In this document: positions 4,112-49,800 of the stretch, piece by piece
Position numbering within the stretch: the stretch's first letter is position 1
How the letters are laid out: each line of letters opens with the position of its first letter
Assembly (NCBI RefSeq): GCF_018739865.1
Contig: NZ_JADOER010000011.1
Location: forward strand, 310,001-374,000
Direction: 5' to 3'
Length of the DNA: 64,000 nt
DNA from: Leptothoe kymatousa TAU-MAC 1615
GTDB lineage: Bacteria > Cyanobacteriota > Cyanobacteriia > Phormidesmidales > Phormidesmidaceae
Notes under the pieces: generated by a model
The model's database searches: none
The model's input: the letters and a program-made list of their open reading frames with translations, nothing else
Told to the model about the DNA's origin: nothing
Translations under genes and position numbers: made by a program

Positions 4112-4828
4112 TTGTCCAAGGGGCACCCGCGAAAGACTTTTTCAGACAGCAAACTTTTTCAATTCAACACATCCATGAAAACAGCGCGCACCCAGGTAAA
4201 GCGAGTCCCTAAGCGGGGCAACTATGATCTCACCACAGTGTGTTCCATTTTAGATGCCGGACTGATCTGCCATGTGGGGTTTGTGGTCGAGGGGCAACCC
4301 TTTGTGATTCCCACGGCCTATGGTCGCATAGAGAATCGGCTATTTATCCACGGGTCTCCCGCTAGCCGCATGCTGAAATCGCTGCAACAAGGCATCGATG
4401 TGTGCGTCACGGTGACGTTATTGGATGGGTTAGTACTGGCGCGATCAGCCATGCACCACTCCATGAACTATCGCTCGGTGGTGGTGTTTGGCAAGGCTGA
4501 GCTAGTGAGCGAACGCGAGGAGAAACTACGGGCACTGTATGCGTTTACAGAGCATGTGATGGCGGGGCGTTGGGCGGCAACGCGGGAGCCCAATGAACAG
4601 GAATTGCAAGGAACGACGGTGTTGGCGTTGCCCATTGAGGAGGCCTCGGCCAAGATTCGCACCGGTCCGCCAGTGGATGATGCGGCGGATTATGATTTGC
4701 CCCATTGGGCGGGAGTGATTCCACTGCGGGTGCAGGCGGGGGAACCGATTGGGGACCCGCAATTAGCGAAGGGAATTGGGGTGCCGGACCATGTGACCCA
4801 ATATTTACAAAATTCGGTCTCCAGGTAA
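4112..4828 (+). CDS. Pyridoxamine 5'-phosphate oxidase-related flavin-nucleotide-binding protein
   Basis: RGNYDLTTVCSILDAGLICHVGFVVEGQPFVIPTAYGRIENRLFIHGSPASRML...; divergent from the MocR gene. The real start may be internal (MKTARTQVKRVPKRG). Confidence 0.85.
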   Translation: MSKGHPRKTFSDSKLFQFNTSMKTARTQVKRVPKRGNYDLTTVCSILDAGLICHVGFVVEGQPFVIPTAYGRIENRLFIHGSPASRMLKSLQQGIDVCVTVTLLDGLVLARSAMHHSMNYRSVVVFGKAELVSEREEKLRALYAFTEHVMAGRWAATREPNEQELQGTTVLALPIEEASAKIRTGPPVDDAADYDLPHWAGVIPLRVQAGEPIGDPQLAKGIGVPDHVTQYLQNSVSR

Positions 4829-6147: not shown

Positions 6148-9100
6148 TTAAATTAGCATTGCCTCAACCTTTGAAACACCTTTGAGGGTTGTAATGGCAT
6201 TAATAGCTTTATCGCGAACAGCCTGATCCTCATCCCATAGGAGTTCCGATAGCTCATGTACTACTGTTTCAGAAACATAATTTAGCTGCTCTAAAGCTCC
6301 TACAATAAAGACACGTTTTTCAGACGATTCATCTTTAAGCAAAGGAATTAAAAGATTTACAATTTGCTCAGACGGAATAGATAAATCTATTTGAACTAAA
6401 ATATTAGTTGAAGATTTATACGATCTATAAATAGATCGTTCTTCGCTAGCGAGTAAACCTTGAAGCCTTGGCACAGTTTGTTCAACAAGATCTGGCAAGA
6501 GAGTGAATATTTCTCTTACCTTATTACCCAGATTCAATCCAAGGTTTTCTTCATCTAACAATCGACCTAAGCCTATCAAGATAAGATCTAGTGCATCCAC
6601 TATTCCAGACCCATCAGGGAATTGGAGAGGAAGATCATAGAACTGCCGGGCAATAAACAACCGTAGTTTTTCAACTATTGAGTCTAAATTAGCATCCATT
6701 TTCAATAATCCATAAGCAGCAATACCTTGGATTAAAAGATTCTGATTATCTAAAAGCAGATGAAATTTTTTAGATATAAATTCTGTACCACTCGTATGAT
6801 CTTCAATTAATGCCTGGAAATATTCACCTGCCAAACTAAAATATTCTTCAGCCTCTTCAAAACTTCCTTCAATTGACAAGGAAAGGGTCTTGTCATAAGC
6901 CTTTTCCATAGCCGAATATAGACTATTTGCAGCTAAATCAGACAATCTGCTAAATTCACCTAACGTAGAGATAGCATTATAATTCACGCTTTCTTCAGAC
7001 GTATCAAGTGCAATTAAGTTTACTTTCTTTTCTAAAAAGGCAGTAGGTTCGACTTTTAGTGCAATTAGTATTTTGCGAATATCATCAACAAGATAGGATT
7101 CATCTTCTTCAAGAATCCCAAACATTCTCCCAATTAAAGGAGGCAGTGATGTTTCTATGGACTCTAAAATTTTTAGAGTGGATTCTCTAATAGTCGCATC
7201 ATCATTTTCCATCAAATCTGCCACAGCAGCAATAATAAAATCTAAACCATTCTGTAGGTTTTCCTGTAGAATCAAAACCTGCTCAGGTACTTCATAGTTT
7301 TCTTCAATCAGGTACCTTTTTAGAAGATTAGCGACAGGAGCATCAACTCCAAATAAAACTAAAAAATATGCAGAAATAGAGCTGACCAATAAATTGTCAT
7401 CAGCAATTAGTCTTCTGAAGGTTTTTAATAAAGATTCTGGAGGCCGCTCCTTTAAATCATACAAGGTTTCACAGACAGTTTGTATGACCGAGATATTATT
7501 GCTCTTCAGTAAAGATACAAACTGTTGACTGGCAAAGTCTGATGTCTTAGTAGCTTCGTATAGAGCTGAAATTGCGTCACGCCGACAATCCTCATCAGTT
7601 CCATAAGCAACAGGAATGAGTTGACTTATCCAAGTCTCTTTAATTTTTCCTTCTTCTAGATAATTTTCTAATATCCGAATAAAATCTCTTTGTATATCAG
7701 CATTATCAGTATTTAGAATTGATTTCAGATCTAGTTCCACAATATCTGAATGAACACTTAACTGATATAAGCTCTCAAGGGACTCATGATGCCAGTCATC
7801 TTCTAAACAATATGATTTTAATATGACCAAGATTTCTTCGTTGGGTGTGTCTTTTAATTTTCCAATAGAATCTATTGCTGAACGACGTATCCAAGACGTC
7901 TCATGCTTCAGCAGAGAAGCTAAAACATCAATTACAGGCTGACTTACTTTATTTAAAGCAATCAACGTCTCTGTAGCAACTACGCGAATATAGATATCAG
8001 AATCATTGAGAACCTCAATCAGGTTACTAGATACTTTATTAGAGGCAGATTGTAATTCTCCCAAAGCCTCGATAGCATCGTAACGACTGTCTAAATCAAC
8101 ATCATTTACTACTGACAATAGTGTGTTGATAGCAAGTTCTTGATATTGCTTTTTGGGAAGCAGTACTTTAGCTACTTCAATACGTATAGACACATCTTCA
8201 GCATCTAACAACGGCAGAAGAGTTTCAAATTCTACATTTTCTAGCTCCTCTAAAGATCCTATTGCTTTAATCGCCTGAGTACGTTCTGAAATAATTTCTT
8301 CATTTTTAGTAAGGCTTATATTTAAGAGTGTGTTTACAACTTTTTTTTCTGTTATGCCTAATTCGAGAAGTGATTGAGCTGCTTGAAGACGGACTGATAT
8401 TTCTTTATCACTCAGCAAAGAGCAGAGTTTAGCCTTATAGTGAATGCCAATCTCTTTAGAACCACAAAGTTGACGAATTGCATGAGTTCGAACAAAATTA
8501 TTATTATCTTCATCACATATCAATTCTATAAGGGTATTAATAACTGTCCTATTCAATACACTCGATCTCAGTAAAGTTTGAGCTGAGATTAGGCGAACAT
8601 GAATATCCTCATCACTTAATAAAATCTCAAGACCGGTCAAGATTTTCTTTGGCTTCTTTCCAAAGCGACCTATAGAAGAGACTCCAAAGTATCTCACATA
8701 AGGATCTTTATCGGTTGAAAGACTTAAACAATTATTTAGAACAATATCAGAATCAATATACAGATTTCCTATTGTTCTAATTATACGATGTCTGACATGA
8801 TCATCTTCATAAGATATCAAAAACAATAATTTAGTGAAAACTTGCTCAAATCCTCTAGCAATTTCACCTAAAGCATCTATAGCTTGACATCGCAATGAAG
8901 TATTTACTGAGGTCTCTGTAAGCCTTAGAGTTCTTTGAACTATTAATTCTGATGAAAGATTATTTTTTGTGACTACTTTTAGCCAATTCATACACTCAAA
9001 ATAATTTCTATATTCTCCATAAGAAGGAATGCCAAACCCTACCGTTCTATCGAAAATTTTAACTAGAATATAACTAAGATTTTGCTTTTCCAACTCAGAA

Positions 9101-12100
9101 AAAGAGTAATTCAACTCATTCAAACATTCCAAAAGCATATAAATATATTTCACTTTTTGACTCGTAAAATAAGTATACCTTTGCGTATATTTGTCAGTTA
9201 ATTCCTTTAGTAAGCTACCTAATAAAGGTAAGACTCTTCCCGAACTATTGTATAAATTTTGCAATATTGAAAATACTTCTACACGAACTATATAATCTTC
9301 TTCTAGAAGGGGCGTTAATTCCGTAACTGCGCGCTCTTCAAAAAGCGTATCTAATTCTAATAGTAGTTTTATACATTTTACCTGAAGTTCTTTATCTTGA
9401 GTTTTTCTGATTGATAATATAGCCTCTTTCAATTCTTCCTTTTTCGCTAAATCCTGAAATAGATTAGATTCAGTTATTTTTTTTATATCTGAGAAAACTT
9501 CAATAATCGAAGGGACAATTTCTAAGATTTTAGATTTATCAATAGGAATAGCATTACTGAGTAATATTAGAGATACTGATTCTTGAATCCAAAGATTTTC
9601 ACTTTTAAATAACTTAAATATTCTCTTCTCAAGAATTAAATAAGCCTCCCTTGTTATTGCTCGGAATATATATTCTAATTGACTTTTTGACTCATCATTT
9701 TCCCTTAGCAAATGCGCAATAGCTGCAACAATAACATCTAAGGAATCTTCTAGCTCTGAATCACCAGATTCATTTAGATACTCTAAGATTTGTGTCGGCA
9801 AACCATAGTCTCCATCTTCAATGAATCCTGAAATCTCTGAAATAACCAGATCGCTCACAAGCTCGAACTTAACTAAAAAATATGTAGAAATACTAGTTGT
9901 AATAATGTCTTTTCGGCTCAGCATTAAAGGCACTAAAAAATCTTCTAATTTTCTTTTAATCCTAGGAGCCATAGAATTAAAAGAAAAAGAATCAATTATA
10001 TTCGACGCATCTTTAACTAGCTCAAAACTTGAATTTTCCAGGAGCTTTAAGATTTTATTTAAAGCTATGTCTGATTGTTCCAGAATGCTCTCCAAAATTT
10101 TTGATGCGTCACGTCGGAGATCTTCATCCTTGCCAGAAAACAACTCAAATAGTTTATGAATTATTCCCTCAGACACACTACCAATCTCAATCAAAGCTTC
10201 TCGTGCTTCATACCTCAAGTTTTCAACTTCTTCTTCATTAAACTCTGATAGATTCGTATCTAAAAAGTATAAAAGTTCACCAGAACAGTCTTTTGCTAAA
10301 CTTCCTAGTTTACCTAAAGCTTGAATAGACTTTTCTACAATCTTAAAATCCTCGCTTTTCAAAAGCTGAATTAACGTGTTTATCAAAGAAGCAGATCCAC
10401 ACTTTAATTCCGCTAGCGCATATGCTGATTGTGATTGAATTCTAATATCTTTATCTTGAATGGCTTCTAGAAAAACAAGAATCAATTGACCTGATAAAAC
10501 ATTCTCTGCTCCTAATAACTCAGATGCTTGTAACCGATTATCTGCAGTCCCATTTAATAACTGTTCACACAGAACATCCACTACTTTTGATGAGGTTTGC
10601 TCAAGCTTGAGGAGAGCACTAGCAGCTTGAAAACGAATATTAGGATTCGCATCATCGAGAAACTCTGTAAGGCTCTGTAGTATCAGGGGAGCAATATTAT
10701 GAAGCTTGCCTAATGCACAGATAGCACTAATCTGCACATCTTGATTTTTGTTTTTAAGTAAGCTGAGGAGTCTCTCAATGATGTACTTAGCCGAGTTCCC
10801 GAGGTTACCCAATGCTTCAGCCGCACTAGACTGAACCTCTGGATATTTATCATCCAGCAATAACGTCAGCTTCTCTAATACACTAGGCAATGAGCGATCA
10901 AGCTTACCCAATGCTTCAGCTGCGCTGGCTCTAACCTGATAGTCTTTATCGTTTAATAGCCCCTCTAATTCTTCGACTACCTCTCTAGAACCATTATTTA
11001 AGATACCTAATTTTTGTGCGGCATCTGAGCGTACATTAGCGTTTGTATCCTTTAGTAATGCAAGTAATCCCTTAATTGAGAACTCTGACTCTTGATCAAG
11101 TTTTATCAATGCTTTTGCCGCACTAGTGCGAACTCCAGGTGCTCTATCATTTAACAAATACTCAAGTTTTTCTAGTACAGTTTCAAGGCTGTCCAATAAG
11201 TCAGAACCGCTGTCTAATTCACCAATTAGCTCAGCAGCATGGATACGAACTCGATAGTCCTCATCATCCAGTTGATTAATAATTGCCTGGATAATTAAGC
11301 GATCTGATTGTTCTAAACTCATCAAGGTTTTTGCTGCCTGCAGACAAATACTTGATGAACTACTTTCAAGCATCTGCCGCAAGCCCTTAAGCGTGGCTTC
11401 ATCAGCTTTACCTGCAGCCTCTAGGCCCAAAATGGCAATGGTTTGAACTTTAATGTCGGCATCTCCCAAAAGCTCTAAGAATCGCATTTGCGTTGAGTTA
11501 GATACAACGCTCAATTCCACTAGTGCTGAAACAGCTTGGGCACGCACATGCGGTTCAGTATCCTCAGATGCTTGCATCAGAGTGTGTACAACCAGTTCAG
11601 AAGATTGCCCTAATTTACCAATAGATTGAATTGCACTTGCTCGTACATCCCCATCTAAGTCTTGCGCGGTTTTGATTAAAGCCGTCAGAGCGTCTTTTGC
11701 ATCAGCTCCAATTTTGCCAATTTCTCTAGCTGCTCGCTGTCTATCCTCTGGTTCTGCTACAGAAAGATCAGACATCAATCTACGGATTCGACGCCTGAGT
11801 CTTTCTGTAGCTAATACTTCAGGATCAAGACCTGCCAGTTGCTCCAATCGCTGAATGATACTTTCAGGCACTCTGAAACTGGAACCACTTTCCGCTTCAC
11901 AACAGTTTCGAAGCGCTAACAAAAAACCTTGGATTTCTTCCAATGAGTTAGACTTAGCATAAATCTCTTGAAAAAAGGCTTGCCAATCGTTCTCGTTATC
12001 ACGCAACCGCTCAACTAAGTGTAACGCTGCCAAATACTCTGCTAATGGATCGAGAGTAAAACGAATCCGAGTCTTTGCGGGCGAAATAGTTCTAATCAGA

Positions 12101-13509
12101 GAAAGTGGCTTTTCTAAATAATCTAAAGCATTCTTAGCTTGTTCTTGAGCAAAATTATTATCGCCCTTCAATAGCAAAAGTTTTTCTATGACTTGTTCTC
12201 GATTTGCTGTTTCCGGTTTTAAAGTATTTTTCAAGCACTCCCATGCAGTCACTTTTGCATTCTGCTGAACCTTTGTATCATCAAGTCTGCCATCTTGAAC
12301 GTTTCGATTTAACTCATTTAGATAGCTTAAAATCAAATCCGTAATATTAGTAGGAAGATCATTAATAAATTGATCTTGTACGACAGATATCATTTGGTCT
12401 GCGTACAGTCTAGCCAACAAAACAGTTATTTCTTTCTCTTCAGTGACAAGTTGTGATAAACGACGCAAAGCATCAAAGTAATCTTCATCTTCAAATAATT
12501 CGCGTTGGTCCTTAGCTTTCAAGTAGTCGTCCATAAAAATAGACAACTGCTTACCTGAAACACGCTGAGGTTTAATTGTTGTTTGAGTAACTTCACGCCC
12601 TAAAATATCCTCTAGCCGCGATGTGACAATTAGGGCATTAACTGGAGATTTAGGATCTTTGTACCTTACTGCTTTGCGTGTCTTCTCACTCATCTCAGAT
12701 AAGTGATCAACAATCACCAAAACTCTACGCTTCTCAAGTAACTGGTTTAAGAGTTCTTCTGATACAGGCTTTTCGTCATTTCTTAGATTCCTAATCTGTA
12801 GAGTAATTGCATCTAACAGCGTACCGTCTAGTTCTTCTTCGATAAGTACAGGAATCATGCGATGAGCGCATATTCGCTCTTCCTGAACTTCCGCCATTGA
12901 CCACTTCGCAATTTGGCAAGCTAAGCTTGTTTTGCCTATACCTCCCTCACCTACAATTACCAACCGAAAGAGCTGTCTTTTACAAAATGTTTGTAAATCC
13001 TCTGCCGTTAGCTGAGGATTAGTTTTTCGGTCAACTGACACAGGCAATGAAATATGTATCAGTCGCTCCTCAACCGTTGTACGGGATTCAAACTCTGTTA
13101 GAGCTTGTTCAATTCGAACATCTACCCAGGCATCAAGTACCTTGGGACGATATTTAAGCCACAGTACTATGTCTGGGGTTAGAGTGATTTGCGTACTCGG
13201 AATTGAAAACTGGGCAGGTAAATGCAATAACCAGAGTGGACGTTTCCACAAAATGGAAAGATAAGCAATACTTACCCCAGATAGCGTAAGTATTGGAAGT
13301 ATTGCTATCCAATTTTCCTTAAACCAATCGAAAACTATATCCGTGGAAGGTTGAGACTGTTGAACAGCTTGACTGACCGATGAAGAGGTTGTCCCCGGCG
13401 TCGAATTTGGTTGTGCGTAGCTGCCAGAAGCCAAAAATAATGCACTGAAAACACTAAGAGCTAAACCTCTGTAATTAAGTAAAAAAATTGTCTTCAGTCG
13501 TTGGGGCAT
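6148..13509 (-). CDS. Giant membrane-anchored NACHT NTPase with extended HEAT-repeat solenoid (2453 aa)
   Basis: N-terminal signal-like segment and second hydrophobic segment (WIAILPILTLSGVSIAYLSIL); Walker A GEGGIGKTSLA (near 12925-12952) and Walker B-like RVLVIVDHLSE; then roughly 1850 aa of HEAT-like repeats (e.g. LDGDVRASAIQSIGKLGQSSELVVHTLMQASEDTEPHVRAQAVSALVELS). Confidence 0.9.
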   Translation of the reverse strand: MPQRLKTIFLLNYRGLALSVFSALFLASGSYAQPNSTPGTTSSSVSQAVQQSQPSTDIVFDWFKENWIAILPILTLSGVSIAYLSILWKRPLWLLHLPAQFSIPSTQITLTPDIVLWLKYRPKVLDAWVDVRIEQALTEFESRTTVEERLIHISLPVSVDRKTNPQLTAEDLQTFCKRQLFRLVIVGEGGIGKTSLACQIAKWSMAEVQEERICAHRMIPVLIEEELDGTLLDAITLQIRNLRNDEKPVSEELLNQLLEKRRVLVIVDHLSEMSEKTRKAVRYKDPKSPVNALIVTSRLEDILGREVTQTTIKPQRVSGKQLSIFMDDYLKAKDQRELFEDEDYFDALRRLSQLVTEEKEITVLLARLYADQMISVVQDQFINDLPTNITDLILSYLNELNRNVQDGRLDDTKVQQNAKVTAWECLKNTLKPETANREQVIEKLLLLKGDNNFAQEQAKNALDYLEKPLSLIRTISPAKTRIRFTLDPLAEYLAALHLVERLRDNENDWQAFFQEIYAKSNSLEEIQGFLLALRNCCEAESGSSFRVPESIIQRLEQLAGLDPEVLATERLRRRIRRLMSDLSVAEPEDRQRAAREIGKIGADAKDALTALIKTAQDLDGDVRASAIQSIGKLGQSSELVVHTLMQASEDTEPHVRAQAVSALVELSVVSNSTQMRFLELLGDADIKVQTIAILGLEAAGKADEATLKGLRQMLESSSSSICLQAAKTLMSLEQSDRLIIQAIINQLDDEDYRVRIHAAELIGELDSGSDLLDSLETVLEKLEYLLNDRAPGVRTSAAKALIKLDQESEFSIKGLLALLKDTNANVRSDAAQKLGILNNGSREVVEELEGLLNDKDYQVRASAAEALGKLDRSLPSVLEKLTLLLDDKYPEVQSSAAEALGNLGNSAKYIIERLLSLLKNKNQDVQISAICALGKLHNIAPLILQSLTEFLDDANPNIRFQAASALLKLEQTSSKVVDVLCEQLLNGTADNRLQASELLGAENVLSGQLILVFLEAIQDKDIRIQSQSAYALAELKCGSASLINTLIQLLKSEDFKIVEKSIQALGKLGSLAKDCSGELLYFLDTNLSEFNEEEVENLRYEAREALIEIGSVSEGIIHKLFELFSGKDEDLRRDASKILESILEQSDIALNKILKLLENSSFELVKDASNIIDSFSFNSMAPRIKRKLEDFLVPLMLSRKDIITTSISTYFLVKFELVSDLVISEISGFIEDGDYGLPTQILEYLNESGDSELEDSLDVIVAAIAHLLRENDESKSQLEYIFRAITREAYLILEKRIFKLFKSENLWIQESVSLILLSNAIPIDKSKILEIVPSIIEVFSDIKKITESNLFQDLAKKEELKEAILSIRKTQDKELQVKCIKLLLELDTLFEERAVTELTPLLEEDYIVRVEVFSILQNLYNSSGRVLPLLGSLLKELTDKYTQRYTYFTSQKVKYIYMLLECLNELNYSFSELEKQNLSYILVKIFDRTVGFGIPSYGEYRNYFECMNWLKVVTKNNLSSELIVQRTLRLTETSVNTSLRCQAIDALGEIARGFEQVFTKLLFLISYEDDHVRHRIIRTIGNLYIDSDIVLNNCLSLSTDKDPYVRYFGVSSIGRFGKKPKKILTGLEILLSDEDIHVRLISAQTLLRSSVLNRTVINTLIELICDEDNNNFVRTHAIRQLCGSKEIGIHYKAKLCSLLSDKEISVRLQAAQSLLELGITEKKVVNTLLNISLTKNEEIISERTQAIKAIGSLEELENVEFETLLPLLDAEDVSIRIEVAKVLLPKKQYQELAINTLLSVVNDVDLDSRYDAIEALGELQSASNKVSSNLIEVLNDSDIYIRVVATETLIALNKVSQPVIDVLASLLKHETSWIRRSAIDSIGKLKDTPNEEILVILKSYCLEDDWHHESLESLYQLSVHSDIVELDLKSILNTDNADIQRDFIRILENYLEEGKIKETWISQLIPVAYGTDEDCRRDAISALYEATKTSDFASQQFVSLLKSNNISVIQTVCETLYDLKERPPESLLKTFRRLIADDNLLVSSISAYFLVLFGVDAPVANLLKRYLIEENYEVPEQVLILQENLQNGLDFIIAAVADLMENDDATIRESTLKILESIETSLPPLIGRMFGILEEDESYLVDDIRKILIALKVEPTAFLEKKVNLIALDTSEESVNYNAISTLGEFSRLSDLAANSLYSAMEKAYDKTLSLSIEGSFEEAEEYFSLAGEYFQALIEDHTSGTEFISKKFHLLLDNQNLLIQGIAAYGLLKMDANLDSIVEKLRLFIARQFYDLPLQFPDGSGIVDALDLILIGLGRLLDEENLGLNLGNKVREIFTLLPDLVEQTVPRLQGLLASEERSIYRSYKSSTNILVQIDLSIPSEQIVNLLIPLLKDESSEKRVFIVGALEQLNYVSETVVHELSELLWDEDQAVRDKAINAITTLKGVSKVEAMLI

Positions 13510-13824: not shown

Positions 13825-15114
13825 ATGGGCAACTCTTCTATGGGCTTCAAGCACTATGCCGCCAGTACAACACTGCTACCATTGCTATTTTCATTGACTA
13901 TTAGCCCACTTAGCGCGCAACCAATCAATACTGAACAAATCGCCCGCAGCGCAACTGTTTCCACCCCCGATATCCTGAACGAAATCAACCGCCTGCGCCA
14001 AAACCCAGCCGCCTATGCCGACTGGCTCCAAACCACCCGCAGCTACTACATCGGCACCGCCCTCTACTGGCCCGGACAACGCCCCCTCCAAACCCAAGAA
14101 GGTACCACCGCCCTGGATAACGCCATCCGCACATTGCGTAACACCGCACCCCTAGCCCCCCTAACCACCAGCCAGGGACTTTCCCAAGCCGCCACAGACC
14201 ATGCCCAGGACCTGCACCTATCCGGTCGCTTTAGCCTCCGGGGCAGCGACGGCAGCACCGCCGAAGACCGCATCCAACGCTACGGCACCTACGAAGGTCG
14301 CCTCAAAGAACTCATTAGCGAAGGTCTCAACGACCCAGCCGCCATCGTCGCCGCCCTGGTTCTGGACGATGGCAATAGCAGTCGCAGCTATCAGCAAACC
14401 CTTTTGGCCCCCGACCTGCACCACATCGGCATCGGCTGCATCCCCAGCGGCAGGCTCACCCTCTGCATTACCAGCTTCGCCACCCACTACACCGACAACG
14501 CTGCCCCTGAACCAGTCGCCAGTAAAGCAACCCCCACTAGCAGCGCAACAGAGCATCTATCCACCCTGGCAGCAGACTTTATTGCCGAGACCAACACCCT
14601 GCGACGCAACCCGGCCCGGTATGCAGAAAAACTACGGGCACTGCGCCCCTACTATGACGGCAACCTGGTAAAACTACCGGGACAGCCTATTTTGCAAACT
14701 GTTGAAGGGGTCGCCGCCCTGGATGAAGCGATTGTAGCCCTCGAGAATACCGATTCTCTCCCACTGCTTAGCTATTCCACCGGACTTAGCCAGGGGGCAG
14801 CGGACCACGCCAACGACTTGGGCAATGGTAACGTTGGCCATTATGGCAGCGACGGTAGCGCACCGCTGGATCGGGTGAATCGCTATGGCACGATTCCTGC
14901 TGGGAATCGCATCGGTGAAAATATTAGCTTTGGTCCTTTCTCTTCGGCGGAATGGCACATTATCCAATTGTTAATTGACGACAATGTGCCGAGCCGTGGC
15001 CACCGTGAGGCACTGCTGCGATCTGAGTATCGCTTTACGGGCAGTGCCTGCAACAGCCATGCTACGTTTGAAATTGTTTGTGTTGCCACCTATGCGACGG
15101 CATACGAGGAATAA
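13825..15114 (+). CDS. Secreted protein with two tandem CAP (SCP/PR-1-like) domains
   Basis: Signal-like N-terminus; two copies of ILNEINRLRQNPAAYADWL.../FIAETNTLRRNPARYAEKL..., each followed by LSQ(A/G)A(T/A)DHA and GSDGS motifs. Confidence 0.83.
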   Translation: MGNSSMGFKHYAASTTLLPLLFSLTISPLSAQPINTEQIARSATVSTPDILNEINRLRQNPAAYADWLQTTRSYYIGTALYWPGQRPLQTQEGTTALDNAIRTLRNTAPLAPLTTSQGLSQAATDHAQDLHLSGRFSLRGSDGSTAEDRIQRYGTYEGRLKELISEGLNDPAAIVAALVLDDGNSSRSYQQTLLAPDLHHIGIGCIPSGRLTLCITSFATHYTDNAAPEPVASKATPTSSATEHLSTLAADFIAETNTLRRNPARYAEKLRALRPYYDGNLVKLPGQPILQTVEGVAALDEAIVALENTDSLPLLSYSTGLSQGAADHANDLGNGNVGHYGSDGSAPLDRVNRYGTIPAGNRIGENISFGPFSSAEWHIIQLLIDDNVPSRGHREALLRSEYRFTGSACNSHATFEIVCVATYATAYEE

Positions 15115-17273: not shown

Positions 17274-19517
17274 CTATTGGTCTGTGATCTGCTGATTGAG
17301 CCAGTTAATCACGGCCATGGAACGGGCCGTAAACGCAATCACATACTCTTTGGCTGTTGGCCCTTGCTGTTGCACTTTGGCATAGATGTCGGTTTCGCGG
17401 ACTTCTTCGGGGGCTGACTGTGTTTGAATGAGTAGCTTAATGTTGGTGAGTAAGTTAAGGGGTTCATCTCCTTGAATATTTAACAGGGCCGTTTTGGGTG
17501 AGAGTTTTTGCAAACTGCCACCACAGTGTTGGGCCCCTACCTGCTTTCCTTCTAGGGCTACATATTCAACGGAGATCGTCTGATGTACGGGTTTTAGCGG
17601 TAAATCTTCTGGGGTCAGAAACAGTTTGAATTGATCGCCCCGAATGCCGGTGACGTCGTAGATCGTAATGGGACGTTTAATGCCTTTGGGATAGACCTCC
17701 ACTTTGCTTTGGATGGCCAGACGATGGTGATTGATGGTGCCAATTTCTTCGTGGGTATCTTCGGAAATAAAGATTTGGCCGCCGGTCGTATAGGACTCGA
17801 TGCGGAAGGCGAGATTGACGGCACTACCAATGACGCTATACTTGGTGCGCTTTTCTGAGCCAATGTTGCCGACAATCACACTGCCGGTATTGATGCCAAT
17901 CCCCATTTCTTGTTCGGGAAATCCTTTTTCTCGCATGGCAACATTCACGTCTACCATGGCTTGTTGCATTGCGATCGCACAGGCCACGGCCCGGTCAGGA
18001 TGATTATCATTGACCCGGATGGTGGGAGCACCAAAAATCACTAGGATGCCATCCCCCATAAACTCATCAATGATGCCTCCATATTCATTGATCACATCGG
18101 ACATATAGCCCAGGTACAAATTGAGAATTTGCACCACCTGCTCCGGCGGCAACTGTTCCGAAAGAGCGGTAAAGCCCCGCAGATCGGAGGTGAGGATGGT
18201 AATTTTGCGCGTCTCTCCCCCCAGCTTAAGATTTTCAGGATTGTCCAACAAATTAGCAACAACCTGATCGCTCAAATAGCGACTAAAAGTGCGCCGAATT
18301 TGGCTAGCACTATGGGCCAGGTAGGTATTCACCCCAGCGGCAGCCCCCGTCAGGGCCATCAAGGGAGGAACCATGGGCACCCACCAGCCCAACAACAACA
18401 ATCCATAGGTGCCTGCCACCAAAGCACAGCCAAGGGCAACGAGAAAAATAACCTGGCGCCATAGCGTATCCTTAGCCGGATTGCGCTGCATCCAGGTAAT
18501 TGTTGCCCCAAATAGAGACCACAGAAAAATCCAGAGAATTTCCACCGGTTCTGACAAGGTGCGAATCAGCGCCCGACCATCCAAAGCGGCACTAATTATT
18601 TGGCTGGTGAGATTCGCGTGAATTTCCACCCCAGCCATGGACTTCGGCAGGGCCAGCATCTTGCTACTGTGGGGCACAAAGAAACGGTCCTTGAGACTTT
18701 CCGCCACGGAGCCAATAAAAATCACCCGATCCTTGGCCCAGTCCTCCGGTAGCTCGTCATTTAGCACCGCCCGTAGGGGCACGGTTTCAAAAAGTTCGCT
18801 GCCCCCCCGATAGTTAATCAGGGTTTGATAGCCCTCGGCATCAGCCCGAATATAGCCCCCGTCGTTTTTGTTAAAGGGGCGAAAAACAGCCCCGTTCAAC
18901 TGCCACCAGTCGTCGATGCCCACCGGCTGGGGACCAATCCCCTCAGCATCTAGGTACAGCAGGGCCAAATATAGGGCAAAGCTCGGGGCCTGGACACCTT
19001 CCGGGGTGGTCACCATCAACAGACCGCGACGAATTGTGTTGTCGTTATCCACAATGCCATCGTTGATGCCCACCTGGCCCAACTCCGCTAGCACCGGGGC
19101 CGGATCAATTAAGTCTCGATCGGCACTGTCCCCCAAAATGGTCCGCATCCCGATGAGGTTCGGCGTATTGCGAAACACCTCTTCTAGCTCAGCGTGGCCC
19201 GGTTCCACCGGCACGTCGCGAATAATGTCGAGGCCAATGGCCCTGGGCTGCTGGCTCGACAATTTTGAAATCACCTCAGCGTAGACCGCATCTGGAATGA
19301 TGGCCTGGCCCATCTGGCGAATATCTTCTTCATCGATACCCACAATGGCCACACGAGTATCGGGCGTTTCTGGACGCCACTGCAGGTAGCGATCATAGGT
19401 GAGCCATTCTAAAGGTTGCAACAGCCCCAGGGCGCGCAACAGAATAATTATAATGGTCATCGTCGGGGCGGCAACAACAATACCGCGCCATTGCCACCAA
19501 AGACGTTTAAGATTCAT
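17274..19517 (-). CDS. CHASE2-domain adenylate/guanylate (class III) cyclase
   Basis: CHASE2-like N-terminus (YDRYLQWRPETPDTRVAIVGIDEEDI), three TM helices, cyclase motifs TSDLRGFTALSEQL, DEFMGDGILVIFGAP, GIGINTGSVIVGNIGSEKRTKYSVIGSAVNLAFRIE. Confidence 0.93.
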   Translation of the reverse strand: MNLKRLWWQWRGIVVAAPTMTIIIILLRALGLLQPLEWLTYDRYLQWRPETPDTRVAIVGIDEEDIRQMGQAIIPDAVYAEVISKLSSQQPRAIGLDIIRDVPVEPGHAELEEVFRNTPNLIGMRTILGDSADRDLIDPAPVLAELGQVGINDGIVDNDNTIRRGLLMVTTPEGVQAPSFALYLALLYLDAEGIGPQPVGIDDWWQLNGAVFRPFNKNDGGYIRADAEGYQTLINYRGGSELFETVPLRAVLNDELPEDWAKDRVIFIGSVAESLKDRFFVPHSSKMLALPKSMAGVEIHANLTSQIISAALDGRALIRTLSEPVEILWIFLWSLFGATITWMQRNPAKDTLWRQVIFLVALGCALVAGTYGLLLLGWWVPMVPPLMALTGAAAGVNTYLAHSASQIRRTFSRYLSDQVVANLLDNPENLKLGGETRKITILTSDLRGFTALSEQLPPEQVVQILNLYLGYMSDVINEYGGIIDEFMGDGILVIFGAPTIRVNDNHPDRAVACAIAMQQAMVDVNVAMREKGFPEQEMGIGINTGSVIVGNIGSEKRTKYSVIGSAVNLAFRIESYTTGGQIFISEDTHEEIGTINHHRLAIQSKVEVYPKGIKRPITIYDVTGIRGDQFKLFLTPEDLPLKPVHQTISVEYVALEGKQVGAQHCGGSLQKLSPKTALLNIQGDEPLNLLTNIKLLIQTQSAPEEVRETDIYAKVQQQGPTAKEYVIAFTARSMAVINWLNQQITDQ

Positions 19518-42748: not shown

Positions 42749-45700
42749 ATGGTTCTAACGCAGCGCAGACTCAGTTCTCTTTCCCAACGTTCCATCGTTG
42801 TTAGCCTGGCATTAGTGCTGGCTTTGAGCGCATTTCCGCAGCCAGCTACGGCGATGTCCCTGGCGATGGTGCCGGTGGCCCAAACATCAGGGGCCACCGG
42901 TCAGGTTGGCAACACTGTTGTCAACAATAAAAATGTCGCGAATCTTGTTACGCAAGGGCAAGGTCTAACGATTGACGGCAGCCAATTGATGCAACCCATC
43001 AATCAGGCGCTGAAGGAAAGTTTTGAGCAAGAATATCCAGGCACAGATGTGACCCTGCGAACCAATGGGACTGAACCGGCCCTGGATGCGCTGTTAAATA
43101 ACGATATTGACCTGGCAGCCATTGGCCGATCGCTGTCTGCCACCGAGAAGGCAAAAGGGCTGGTGGAGATTCCCGTTAGTCAGGATGCGATCTCAATCAT
43201 CATAGGCCGCAACAACCGATTTACCGGGCACCTCACCCTGGAACAATTTGCCCAGATCTTCCGGGGAGAGATCACAGATTGGTCAGAGGTGGGCGGCACA
43301 CCCGGCCCCATTCGCTTTATTGATCGGCCCCTGGCCAGTGATACCCGCGCTGTGCTTGGCACCTACGGTATTTTAGGAACCGCGGAACGAGCCCAGGGTG
43401 AGCGGGTGGTCCAGCTAAAAACCGACAATACGGCAGAGGTGATTCGCCAGCTGGACGATGATGGCATTAGCTATGCGATCGCAAGCCAAATCAAAGGCCA
43501 GCGTCGGGTCAAGCCCGTCAAAATGGCGATCCTACAGGACACGCTGCCCGGCGAACAGGCCTACCCCTACGCCCAGATTCGGGGCTATGCCTACAAAAAA
43601 AATAATGCCAAAGCCGTTCTTCCCTTCGTTAATTGGGTAACCGGCGCATCAGGCAAAGCGGCCATTGGCGCCGGTAAAACCGCCGAAGCCGCAGCCATTG
43701 CCACCGCCCTCAATCCACCCATGCTGGCGACAGATGCCGCCACATCCGGGGGCAACATAGGCTTTATCCCTTGGTTATTGGGGCTACTTCCCCTCCCCTT
43801 CCTATTCCTGCTTTGGGGGCAGCGGCGCTCAGCGGCAGAATCAACGTCCCCCAAAGAAAGCCCATTCGCAGAGATCAAACGCCCCGAAACAAAACCAGCG
43901 GCCGCTAACGTCGAAGCTAAACCCGCTGCCCCGACAGCTCCCAAGCCCATCGCCGCCAAGCCCGTCGCCCCCAAGCCCATCGCGCCACCGCCACCGGCTA
44001 AACCCGCTGCGCCCAAGCCGGCGGTAGCTGCGCCGCCGCTGGCTTCGGCACCCAAACCAGCAGCCCCCATCAAGCCACAGACCGTTCCCACACCGCCCAT
44101 CAAGCCAGCGGCGGCTCCAATGCCAGTCGCACCAAGGCCCACATCGCCGCCCACGGTGGCCAAACCCATCAACACAACACCGGGTACCACCCTATCGATT
44201 GTGCCTTTTGAAAAAACAGCCGGCTGGAACAATGCCGAGCAGGTCGCTCACAAAGGGTTCGAATATTTAAAGTCGGAACAAGCTGACAAAGCCGAAGCTT
44301 ACTTCCAACGGGCCCTAGAACTCTCCCCCAGAAATCTCCTAGGTCTCCTGGGGTTGGGTAGCGTATTTTTAACCCTAAAACAGGGAGAAAATGCCCTAGC
44401 CCAGTTCAACCAGGCCACTGAGATTGATCCAGGTAATATCGATGGGTGGATTGGCAAAGGCAAGGCTCTAACCTCGTTGGGACAAGCCGACGCTGCCCTA
44501 GGAGATTTTGACCGGGCACTGCAGCTAAATAAAACCTCCATCGATGCCCTAAAAGCTAAAGGCGATGCCTGTTTAGCCCTAGGTCAACTCGATGAAGCCA
44601 ATGGTTGGTACGGCGAGGCCAATGCGCTGCTCAGCGGCACCCCCATCCCCACATGGAAGCCTGGTTCGAGTGCTCAAACCGTGATGGTGACATCTCCCAC
44701 TAAGGCGCCCGTAGCGCCCGCAGCGCCCACAGCACCCGCAGCAACACACTCCACAGAGAACGCAGGCGTCGCCCAAACGGCTGGCAGTGCAGAACCTAAG
44801 GCCGTTTCGGCTGCCCCCAGCGACGACGCAGGCCACCTCGCAACTATTCGACAATTGGTCAATTGGAATGATCCAGAGGCCATCTGTCAGAAGGGACTGT
44901 ATTACCAAAGCTTAGGGCGCTCCAAGGAAGCAGAATACTGCTTTCGACGGGTATTGGAACTCTCTGGGCACAACGTGACTGCCATGATCGGGTTGGGGCA
45001 AATCGTCCTAGATGCGGGGCAGGCTGACCATGCACTGACGCTGTTTAACCAGGCCGTTGAGCTAGCCCCCAACTCACCTAAAGCCTGGATTGGCCAAGGA
45101 GATGCCCTGATGGCCCTAGGTCGCGGCGATGCAGCCAAACAAAGCTACGCTCGGGCCTGGGGAATCACCCCGGAGACGGCTAATGCTAAACTTTCTCCGA
45201 AAACTGTCATTTCCCCCACGGCGGTCATTTCCCCCACCACTCTAAGGTCTCCCGCAGCGATCGTTTCCCAACCGGTGAGTCAACCATTGGTGAGCCAGAC
45301 AGTGGTGGCGCCACCAGAGAAAACGCCCGCCCCCCCATTGCCTGTGGCACCCCCCGCTCCGGCGTCCTATGTGGCACCATCAACGCCACAGCTACTGGAT
45401 ATGGTGATTTTGGTGGATAGCCAAGCGCCCAATATGGATATCACCGCCATGGAACGGGTGATGGGCGATGTACTCTCAGCCACTCATCGCCCGACCGATA
45501 CGCGCGTCACCTGGCTAGGCACCCATGGCACTATGGCAGGGACTCCCGTTCACCAAAGTGTCCCTGACTATCTGGGTAGCCTGGGCAAAGTTTCCGACAC
45601 TCCAGACGGTGTAATCTCTTCGGCTGAGGCCATGGCAACGATCGCCCAACACTTCGACTGGCGTCCCGGAGCGGCCCAATCTCTCTTGTTTGTTGGGGCC

Positions 45701-46321
45701 CAAGGTCTTCATAACGACAACAACGAAAAAACCGCCGTTCAATCCGTTGTTCAAGCGGCTAATGGCACAGGCACCATTGTTAGCACTTACCTGTATAAGC
45801 CCGCCGATGAGGCAGATAGGGGTGCGATCGCAGCCCATAAAGAACTGGCCATGGCAACGGGGGGGTTGGCCTTTGTCAACGACGGCAATACCCCCATGGG
45901 CGACGTCCTAGGGCAAACCATAGAAAAGACTTGTCGAGAATGTGTCTATCGCAGGCTAACCATTCGCAGCCATAGCGACTGCCTTAGCCTAGATCCAGCT
46001 CGACTCCAATCATTCAACAGTGCTAGGTCCCTCAGCCCAGGTAAATACATTATTCGCATCAATTCAGGCACCTTTAGCTATTGGCCAGATGCCCCCACCT
46101 TCGAACCCGAACCCTGGGTCATGCTGTGGATTAACGGAGGTCGGTTTATCAACCAGGACACCAATGTGGCCGTGGGAACAACATGGCTCACCCTCAATGG
46201 CTATAACGACGTGCTCAAACTAGAAGTGTTAGCAGACACGCACCTCTGCGCCTTGTTTTTAGATACCTACAAAGACGATAACGTGGGCCAGATTACCCTG
46301 TCCATCGTAGAGGCCGGCTAG
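42749..46321 (+). CDS. Membrane-anchored multidomain protein: PBP-like domain, TM, Pro/Ala linker, TPR repeats, vWA-like domain, shared C-terminal domain
   Basis: Signal peptide; PBP-like FEQEYPGTDVTLRTNGTEPALDALLNNDIDLAAIGRSLSATEKAKGLVEIPVSQDAISIIIGRNN...LTLEQFAQIFRGEITDWSEVGG; TM FIPWLLGLLPLPFLFLLWG; TPR-like repeats; LLDMVILVDSQAPNMD vWA-like; C-terminal PEPWVMLWINGGRFINQDTNVAVGTTWLTLNGY. Confidence 0.83.
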   Translation: MVLTQRRLSSLSQRSIVVSLALVLALSAFPQPATAMSLAMVPVAQTSGATGQVGNTVVNNKNVANLVTQGQGLTIDGSQLMQPINQALKESFEQEYPGTDVTLRTNGTEPALDALLNNDIDLAAIGRSLSATEKAKGLVEIPVSQDAISIIIGRNNRFTGHLTLEQFAQIFRGEITDWSEVGGTPGPIRFIDRPLASDTRAVLGTYGILGTAERAQGERVVQLKTDNTAEVIRQLDDDGISYAIASQIKGQRRVKPVKMAILQDTLPGEQAYPYAQIRGYAYKKNNAKAVLPFVNWVTGASGKAAIGAGKTAEAAAIATALNPPMLATDAATSGGNIGFIPWLLGLLPLPFLFLLWGQRRSAAESTSPKESPFAEIKRPETKPAAANVEAKPAAPTAPKPIAAKPVAPKPIAPPPPAKPAAPKPAVAAPPLASAPKPAAPIKPQTVPTPPIKPAAAPMPVAPRPTSPPTVAKPINTTPGTTLSIVPFEKTAGWNNAEQVAHKGFEYLKSEQADKAEAYFQRALELSPRNLLGLLGLGSVFLTLKQGENALAQFNQATEIDPGNIDGWIGKGKALTSLGQADAALGDFDRALQLNKTSIDALKAKGDACLALGQLDEANGWYGEANALLSGTPIPTWKPGSSAQTVMVTSPTKAPVAPAAPTAPAATHSTENAGVAQTAGSAEPKAVSAAPSDDAGHLATIRQLVNWNDPEAICQKGLYYQSLGRSKEAEYCFRRVLELSGHNVTAMIGLGQIVLDAGQADHALTLFNQAVELAPNSPKAWIGQGDALMALGRGDAAKQSYARAWGITPETANAKLSPKTVISPTAVISPTTLRSPAAIVSQPVSQPLVSQTVVAPPEKTPAPPLPVAPPAPASYVAPSTPQLLDMVILVDSQAPNMDITAMERVMGDVLSATHRPTDTRVTWLGTHGTMAGTPVHQSVPDYLGSLGKVSDTPDGVISSAEAMATIAQHFDWRPGAAQSLLFVGAQGLHNDNNEKTAVQSVVQAANGTGTIVSTYLYKPADEADRGAIAAHKELAMATGGLAFVNDGNTPMGDVLGQTIEKTCRECVYRRLTIRSHSDCLSLDPARLQSFNSARSLSPGKYIIRINSGTFSYWPDAPTFEPEPWVMLWINGGRFINQDTNVAVGTTWLTLNGYNDVLKLEVLADTHLCALFLDTYKDDNVGQITLSIVEAG

Positions 46322-46892: not shown

Positions 46893-49800
46893 TTGCTTGC
46901 GTCTCCCATGAAAGAACCAAAGGCATCTCAGCATACCCGTCTGCACCCGTGGTCCTCTCCCCAGAATGAGCCCAGCTCCCATCAGGGGGTGCCACGCCCT
47001 GTTCCCCGCCGCCGCCGGATGTCTTTGGCAAGGTTTATTGCCATTGTTCTCAGCACCGCCGCCGTCACCCAAATGACCGGGACCAGTTTATCAACGGCAA
47101 AGGCCCAATCCTTTGGACAAAATCCTGACGGGTTTCCTATCCCCGCATCGTTACCCGATGGCACCACCCTGAAGCTGGACGGTTCCACCAGCATGCGCCT
47201 GACCAACGAAGCCGTAGAGCAACGCTTTGAGGCCCAGTATGACAACATCGACATAGAACTCAGAGCTAGCCGCACCGATCAGGCCTTTGAAGAGCTGATT
47301 AACGGCGATATCGACATCCTAGCCACCGGGCGTCCCCTCACGGAGGAGGAAAAAGCTCAAGGTGTCGTAGAGGTGCCCCTAGAACAACGGGAGAAACTGG
47401 CCATCATCCTGGGGCCAGACAATCTTTTTCCCACGGAGGATGACCCCAGCACCCCTGACATTGAAAGCAATCTCACCTTTGAACAGTTTGCCCGCATGTT
47501 TCGCGGAGAGATTACCAACTGGTCTGAAGTGGGCGGTCCCGACCTGCCCATTCGCTTTGTCGATCGACCGGAATATAGCGATACTCGACGCGCCCTCAGC
47601 ACCTACACCGTGTTTGACGGCCAGCCATTTGCCACGGGTAGTACGGCAGCACCTACAGCTGACGACGAGACTGAGACCGTCATCAACGCCCTGGGGGAAA
47701 ATGGCATTGGCTATGCGGTTGTTTCCCAGGTAGCCGACCGGGATGACGTGCGGATCATTCCCATGCACCAAACGTTGCCAGACGATCCACGCTATCCCTA
47801 TTCGCAATATCGAGCCTATGTTTACAAAGAAGGGGCCGATCCGGCGGCCCTAGCCTTTCTAGGGTTTGCCACCAGTGCACCGGGGCAAGAAGTGATTGGT
47901 GCGCCAGCAGGTGCGGCGGCAGGTGCGGCACCTGCCGCCGCGCCGCCGCCGCCAGAAGGGATCAACCCAGAGGTGGTCAACCCAGAGGTGGTAAATCCTG
48001 AAGAGGTGGTCCCCCCCAAAGATGGGGCAGCGGCTGGGAAAGGCATTTTTCCCTGGTGGTGGTTAGGATTGTTAGCCCTAATTCCTTTGTTGTGGTTGGC
48101 CCTGCGGGGGCTTAGCAGCGGCGGGGCAGCAGCGCCTCCTGTGGCAGCGGCACCGCCCGCCCCTCGCATGGTGGTCACTCCCCGCAATTGTCGGGAGGGC
48201 TACGCCTATTGGGAAGTCTCCAAAACACTGTTAGACCAGGCTAAAAATGCCGGTCCCCATGCCGTGAAGGTGCGTTTGTACGATGTGACGGGCAACGGCC
48301 CAGACGCCCCCCTACCCAATAACTTCACCGCTGAATTTGACGGTCTTGAGCACAGCCAGGACCTCCATTTCCCGATTCCTGTGGATGGTCGCACCTACCG
48401 GGGGGAAGTGGGGTATCTGGGTCGCGACAATCAGTGGCATACCTGGGCTACATCGGACCCCGTCAAGGTCCCTGTCTGCCCCCAAGGCAACAAGGCCACA
48501 GCTAGGCCGCAGAAGAAAGCGCTCAATGCCGGTTTGGTGGGATTGGCCGCCGCCGGGGCCGCCGGGGCTGGCGCCGCTGTTGCCAAAGCAGGAACTAAAC
48601 GCACGCTGCCCCCCAGCCGCATGGTGCTTACCCCCCGCACGTCGCGTCAGGGCTATACCTACTGGGAAGTGCCCCAGGAGCGCATTGAGGCGGCCAAGCA
48701 GGAGGGCGGTAAAACCAAGCAGGTGCGTCTATACGATGTCACTGGCCGATTGCCCAACGCCCAGCTCCCCGACCCCATTCTCCAGGTTCATTGCAAGGAG
48801 CCTGACACCGATCGGCTCCTGCCCATCGAACGACCCGATCGAGACTATGTGGCCCAGATGGGCTATCTCACCCCAGAAAATCGCTGGTTGCCCCTAGCGA
48901 AATCGAATGTGGTGCGAGTGCCCGCCCAGCCCACCCCCATAGACCAGATCGGTCAAGCAAAATCAGCGGCTCCCTTGGGGGCATTAGGGGCCGGGGCCAT
49001 GGCCACCGGCCTAGCGGCCACCGGTTTGAAAGATGCGCTGCAGCCAGAAGCACCCAAAATCAATCTGGCGGCACCGGTGGAGGTGAAGGTGGAGGTGGCA
49101 TCCCCTGAAGAATTTCAGGTGCAGTGGACCATGGCCAAGGACCAGAAACTGGCGTTGCTCAACAATGCCGCCTACCATCCCGTGGTTAAGCTCCACGATG
49201 TCACTGGCCTAGATTTTGAACGCCAACCCTCCCACAGGGTGACGGTGCATCCGGTCACCGCAGGCGATTTTAACGGCAACACCGCTGCCAAGGTGCTGCC
49301 CGTGCCCCAGTGCGATCGCGACTACTTAGCAGAGCTGGGCTACGACCACAACAACACCTGGGTTTCCCTGGGCCAGTCCAAAACCACCCAGGTAAAATGC
49401 CCGGTTAATGTTGCAGCCCCGGTGGAGTCCGTTTCCATTGAAGTGCTCTCTCCCGAAGAGTTTCAGGTGAAGTGGGTGATGCCCAAAGCCCAAAAACAGG
49501 CATTGCTAACAGAGGATGTCTACAGACCGCTGGTCAAGCTCAAAGATATGACGGGCAAAGACATGGCGGGCATGGGTACAGACCAGCCAGCGGCCCAAAA
49601 TATCTTCACCCATGGGGTGACCGCAGGCGATTTTGATGGCAATACCGCTGCCAAGGTGCTGCCCGTGCCCCAGTGCGATCACGACTACTTAGCAGAGCTG
49701 GGCTACGACCACAACAACACCTGGGTTTCCCTGGGCCAGTCTCGCCTCACCTTTGTCAAATGCCCGGTCAACGTCAAAGCTCCGGTGGAAAATATCGCCA

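Follow-up and report, generated by a model that had tools for sequence, protein, structure and literature searches.

The NLR-type proteins characterised to date are for the most part soluble before activation, with an N-terminal effector; at rest, their ADP-bound ATPase is held closed. Defence against phages is a known function of STAND and NACHT proteins, and NACHT-CLec proteins diversified by diversity-generating retroelements (DGRs), one locus of which has a membrane topology, have been proposed as antigen sensors (PMC10907252, PMC12169576). The antiphage bNACHT proteins (e.g. bNACHT25, PMC12169576) and Avs have a central NACHT/STAND ATPase followed by a C-terminal arm, and some bNACHTs have no discernible effector (PMC12169576). 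STAND/NACHT proteins with modular arms, and with arms diversified by DGRs, are already known; since Dore et al. (2024, PMC10907252) describe DGR-diversified NACHT-CLec proteins as putative antigen sensors, some of them predicted to have a membrane topology, the principle is not new.

The window, that is, the whole stretch of 64,000 nucleotides that was analysed, carries on its minus strand an unbroken ORF with an ATG start, complement(6148..13509), encoding 2453 aa; an open frame of 2453 codons cannot be of chance origin. Its parts are listed in Table 1. Besides Walker A (GEGGIGKT), the ATPase carries a Walker B motif ending at D268, a TSR at 296-298 and the winged-helix motif LDPLAEYLAA, and the motif columns are mostly invariant or nearly so across the aligned relatives. 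With Pfam, NB-ARC scored 26.0 bits (cut-off 23.5) and NCH4 (PF22731) 51.0 bits (cut-off 27); NACHT (PF05729) reached 22.6 bits, just under the cut-off of 26.7 that is passed by several relatives (L061, 38.1; L062, 35.7; L072, 31.8). A sequence search of the PDB gave weak matches, to ArsA P-loops and one NB-ARC protein, 9h2l. No nuclease or other enzymatic effector was found in the protein by Pfam, hydropathy or the AlphaFold2 model, and nothing but signal peptide, linker, transmembrane (TM) helix and juxtamembrane linker lies N-terminal of the ATPase.

At the N-terminus, n- and h-regions and a signal-peptidase-I-like site (SYA|QP) near aa 33 can be seen, together with one hydrophobic stop-transfer segment (KD peak at aa 68-86; helix at aa 67-89 in the model); cleavage site and topology were read by motif and hydropathy, not with a dedicated predictor. 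Most full-length relatives likewise have an early hydrophobic stretch, an AxA-like site and a second hydrophobic segment directly before the conserved linker, and the TM helix was found in nearly all intact relatives. In many of them a HEAT domain of 250-400 aa occupies the place of the linker at aa 34-66. Because the ATP-binding motifs need the NACHT part on the cytosolic side, the parsimonious topology would be type I: signal peptide, extracytoplasmic part, one TM helix, then cytosolic NACHT and C-terminal arm. That the membrane segment itself is the effector is a conjecture, compatible with this anatomy and not favoured over a plain anchor, since a single single-pass helix is left after cleavage of the signal peptide and its family-wide constancy suits an anchor equally well. 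The preliminary description had reported an uninterrupted ORF, without giving its strand, an N-terminal signal/TM region, a NACHT P-loop with Walker B and no nuclease or other effector, and had read the protein as a membrane-anchored STAND NTPase whose solenoid takes the place usual for a sensor; all of this is borne out by the frame, the motifs in their conserved columns and the domain anatomy.

About three quarters of the protein consists of the HEAT arm. HEAT_2 (Pfam) scored 324.5 bits in 13 stretches, about 35 loose HEAT motif matches were counted, and the array repeats every 33 aa (autocorrelation 0.48 over aa 580-1000, falling off further on). Segment-wise Pfam scans gave clear HEAT in three regions (about aa 587-1110, 1530-1930 and 2390-2445); no Pfam match was obtained for aa 1151-1450 or 2201-2330, which are helical by low-confidence prediction only. 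The dozens of HEAT-like repeats counted earlier thus stand in number, but the array is not uniform, owing to these two stretches. An AlphaFold2 model of aa 1-900, built from 23 sequences with the plasmid-record row left out of the alignment, had a mean pLDDT of 84.5 and comprises a disordered N-terminus, the helix, the ATPase, the winged-helix region and a regular helical-repeat solenoid. The single-sequence model of aa 1254-2453 (pLDDT 41.8) is usable only for calling this part helical. Foldseek against the PDB placed HEAT/ARM solenoids on top, with NLRC4 and NOD2 among the matches; VIA-align gave HEAT/ARM solenoids only and, its matches being confined to the solenoid at about aa 565-900, is silent on the NACHT part. 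Recent growth of the array by tandem DNA repeats was rejected: the best internal pair is only 72% identical over 50 nt, so the array is either old or was acquired as such. For aa 1101-2453 no specific homologue was found in 386 genomes, generic HEAT matches of 24-36% only being obtained.

Table 1. Features of the NACHT-HEAT gene (positions in the window) and DGR repeats of two relatives (positions in the named locus)
Feature	Position	Strand	Basis
Whole ORF, membrane-anchored NACHT-NCH4-HEAT protein	6148..13509	-	ORF and Pfam
aa 1-33, Sec-type signal peptide (predicted)	13411..13509	-	hydrophobic h-region aa 8-26 and sequence
aa 34-66, S/T/Q/P linker, largely of low complexity, extracytoplasmic by prediction	13312..13410	-	pLDDT < 50 for aa 1-55
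aa 67-89, single stop-transfer transmembrane helix	13243..13311	-	KD 2.06 and modelled helix
aa 90-178, conserved juxtamembrane linker (RPxWLL... YxPRVLDAWV)	12976..13242	-	near-invariant columns in A1/A2
aa 179-510, NACHT/STAND ATPase including winged helix	11980..12975	-	Pfam NB-ARC/NACHT, model, Foldseek (NLRC4, NOD2)
aa 187-194, Walker A, GEGGIGKT	12928..12951	-	alignment of relatives
aa 262-268, Walker B, RVLVIVD	12706..12726	-	alignment of relatives
aa 519-563, NCH4 (NACHT C-terminal helical domain 4)	11821..11955	-	PF22731, 1.3e-13
aa 587-2453, solenoid of HEAT repeats, predicted to be a cytosolic arm (sensor or scaffold)	6151..11751	-	Pfam, periodicity, model
L035, DGR variable and template repeats	L035:2653-2772 and 4602-4721		reverse transcriptase between
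L073, DGR variable and template repeats	L073:12050-12179 and 13917-14046		

The closest relative, L052 of genome G246 (938 aa), comes from another cyanobacterial order and has the same order of parts, signal peptide-TM-NACHT-NCH4-HEAT, with 47% identity over 907 aa and about 60% in the ATPase. It differs in that its HEAT array has about 10 repeats, as against the 1870-aa array here, and its gene has about the same GC as its flanks. Since L052 shares the architecture with a much shorter array, the long array is particular to the lineage of the 2453-aa protein. The DGR-diversified NACHT-CLec conflict proteins (Thiohalocapsa DGR 3, clade 5D; PMC10907252), likened by architecture, share the NACHT switch and an exchangeable C-terminal arm; two relatives in the present family are likewise DGR targets with an FGE end, whereas the 2453-aa protein has HEAT instead of FGE, and no DGR. 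Compared with the bNACHTs and Avs, it has a secreted N-terminus and a TM helix in place of a nuclease or other effector, gives no PADLOC Avs match and carries NCH4 where bNACHT25 carries NCH1 (PMC12169576). The eukaryotic NLRs NLRC4 and NOD2 match in the arrangement of NACHT and solenoid (Foldseek E about 5e-7 to 1e-6), but the present protein is membrane-anchored and has HEAT rather than LRR, and since full-length TM-scores are low the resemblance is one of arrangement only.

About 40 relatives share a constant core, TM helix, NACHT and NCH4, with swapped arms of three types: extracytoplasmic HEAT, cytosolic HEAT and a cytosolic FGE/C-type-lectin domain. L056-L065 have for the most part about 250-400 aa of extracytoplasmic HEAT and little beyond NCH4, L053 and L054 have HEAT on both sides, and a C-terminal FGE-sulfatase domain (C-type-lectin fold) is found in L035, L070, L073-L075, L077, L079 and L084. 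The distribution is patchy: with aa 1-620 as query, relatives were found at E<=1e-10 in 13 of the 63 genomes of the order (source genome included), and at E<=1e-15 in 15 of the 386 genomes sampled from the phylum. A related-locus search over genome contigs yielded L035 alone. Members were found in 22/42 genomes of the f15 order and 28/53 of g34. Sister subfamilies that bear extracytoplasmic HEAT are common in both, and their ATPases reach 95-99% identity, which is not what a gene in a fast arms race would show. In comparisons of two to three genomes, sister-subfamily members share neighbours, and some sister subfamilies are vertically kept, with synteny, in two cyanobacterial groups. Around the family no recurring partner gene was seen beyond synteny among near relatives; a CHASE2 protein considered as a recurrent neighbour was dropped, the cluster being united by protein-kinase domains (Pfam). 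No family homologue was found in phage records or viral contigs, a result neutral for or against a sensor role.

In one clade the extracytoplasmic arm also diverges faster than the ATPase. Among f15 orthologues, mean identity is 55% in the extracytoplasmic arm, 84% in the ATPase and 77% in the short C-terminal HEAT, and the arm is below the ATPase in 55/55 pairs, which share one tree and are not independent. For G315/G322 the values are 51% (arm) and 90% (ATPase); G338/G436 show hardly any difference (93% and 95%). Relaxed constraint can give the same picture as selection.

Diversified C-type-lectin ends bind ligand in known DGRs. Two FGE members of the family, L035 and L073, are bona fide DGR targets. 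The final 120 nt of the L035 NACHT-FGE gene are repeated 1.9 kb downstream, with 10/10 differences at template adenines; in L073 the variable and template repeats (VR/TR) of 130 nt have 22 differences, 19 of them at template adenines. In both, a reverse transcriptase sits between gene and template. As the FGE arm occupies the place of the HEAT array of the 2453-aa protein, a DGR-diversified domain at this position gives the strongest case so far for a C-terminal arm that faces the ligand as a sensor. The 2453-aa protein itself has no FGE domain by Pfam and no DGR beside its gene, and the source genome yielded a single reverse transcriptase, on contig C18. For L070 the case for a DGR acting in trans was unconvincing, the sole template-like match in its genome being 44 nt at 77%.

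The gene differs from its surroundings in composition: its GC is 30-43% (30-42% in 400-codon bins), as against 47-59% in the flanking kilobases, and its GC3 21-33%. The genes on the left (SAM methyltransferase, pyridoxamine-oxidase-like and MocR-type regulator, names assigned by reading the sequences) are syntenic in five congeners and those on the right (photolyase, peroxiredoxin, CHASE2-cyclase) in three; in congeners the two blocks lie apart, with no NACHT relative at either. A maximum-likelihood core tree pairs the protein with L052 (100/99), in a part of the tree that holds patchy copies and DGR-driven arms, while relatives of its own order are mostly FGE-ended and nearly all separate from it. 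Low GC, absence from all seven congeners, the synteny breakpoint and the grouping with L052 together indicate that the gene was apparently acquired horizontally; universal conservation at syntenic housekeeping positions, which the preliminary description had set against a defence role, is not what is seen for this gene. Also at the breakpoint, divergent from the NACHT gene, lies a secreted-looking protein with two CAP (SCP) domain matches (window 13825-15114).

The reading that we prefer, with roughly even confidence, is that of an NLR-related STAND receptor anchored in the membrane, with the HEAT arm sensing a cytosolic ligand and the output arising at the membrane. Signal peptide and stop-transfer helix would leave a short tail outside the plasma or thylakoid membrane, with NACHT and HEAT in the cytoplasm. 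By analogy with NLRs, the ADP-bound ATPase would be kept closed at rest by NCH4 and the HEAT arm. A cytosolic ligand would bind along the long HEAT surface; it would most likely be an invader product or an invader-altered host protein, the invader origin being conjectural. Binding would open the ATPase, allowing ADP/ATP exchange and oligomerisation at the membrane, where clustered TM helices might perturb the membrane or the clustered platform might recruit a partner.

Whether such a receptor would serve defence is a separate matter. With PADLOC 2.0.0 the protein matched HEAT models only and no Avs/NACHT model. No defence island was found at the locus, where 33 neighbours gave only generic PycC-like and DrmC-like matches, or around about 20 relatives, where 92 neighbours gave scattered single matches, a comparison made without a formal background rate. 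The PycC matches most likely stem from the CHASE2-adenylate/guanylate cyclase at window 17274-19517, which is syntenic with peroxiredoxin and photolyase in congeners. The suggestion of a defence gene is so far unsupported: the search of homologue neighbourhoods proposed with it gave no defence island, there is no Avs match, and inheritance of some sister subfamilies is vertical. A role in conflict would nevertheless be plausible. It is possible, though we consider it unlikely, that the protein is instead a membrane-bound STAND for signalling or stress regulation, in which NACHT acts as a switch that integrates a cue, internal or from the envelope, and relays it through HEAT-scaffold contacts. 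The vertical, syntenic inheritance of the sister subfamilies and the occurrence of single genes amid housekeeping genes fit such a role, the extracytoplasmic HEAT arms of many relatives suit envelope sensing, and a signal-transduction role has also been argued for DGR targets of cyanobacteria (PMC7517822). Against this, the present copy is missing from congeners, looks to have been acquired horizontally and stands in the patchy, DGR-armed part of the tree.

HEAT solenoids are typical protein-binding scaffolds, and the structural neighbours of the arm, PP2A A subunit, importin alpha and Vac8, together with its share of the protein, agree with a membrane-tethered scaffold or trap, in which the arm captures a protein at the membrane and NACHT only regulates conformation, with no oligomerisation-driven death. 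We regard this as improbable, since the ATPase motifs are conserved family-wide, as in a switching NLR, and the arm is replaceable by an FGE-ended one. That the gene is a horizontally acquired passenger, no longer functional or not expressed, would agree with the frequency of broken relatives and with a GC that is not ameliorated, but is highly improbable for 2453 codons without a stop and with all catalytic columns intact.

Extending the receptor reading from this protein to its relatives, we tentatively suggest a transmembrane NLR-like family of type I, in which a TM-NACHT-NCH4 engine would carry arms on either side (extracytoplasmic HEAT, cytosolic HEAT of up to 1870 aa, or a cytosolic retroelement-diversified lectin-fold domain) and the ATPase would report outside and inside cues to the membrane. 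The open-licence literature searched yielded no family that combines a secreted N-terminus with a single TM helix and has sensor arms on either side of the membrane. Exchangeable arms, some under retroelement-driven mutation, suggest an immune-like receptor. If so, a constant anchor and switch with variable two-sided sensors, some programmed to mutate, would make the family a bacterial equivalent of an immune receptor that spans the membrane, and a tractable system for studying the action of a STAND switch on a membrane when no enzymatic effector is present.

Broken copies of the family were found in G034, in G073 and on two Nostocales plasmids, and in G229 a NACHT gene (L067:8809-10163) is fragmented at a position sharing neighbours with congeners. 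Plasmid relatives come from Nostoc (split frame), Scytonema (truncated) and Rhizobium (26% identity). The split NACHT-FGE relative on the Nostoc plasmid (L084:2627-12727) has a MoxR ATPase and a SAV_2336-domain protein about 3 kb away, a trio resembling a ternary conflict system (PMC7159879). The one on the Rhizobium conjugative plasmid (L085:5355-9320) has a signal-like segment and a Ycf48-like propeller, then TM segments and the NACHT part, and is possibly a non-cyanobacterial version of the family with an extracytoplasmic propeller. Two more long ORFs of the window, at 42749-46321 and 46893-51653, encode 1190 and 1586 aa.
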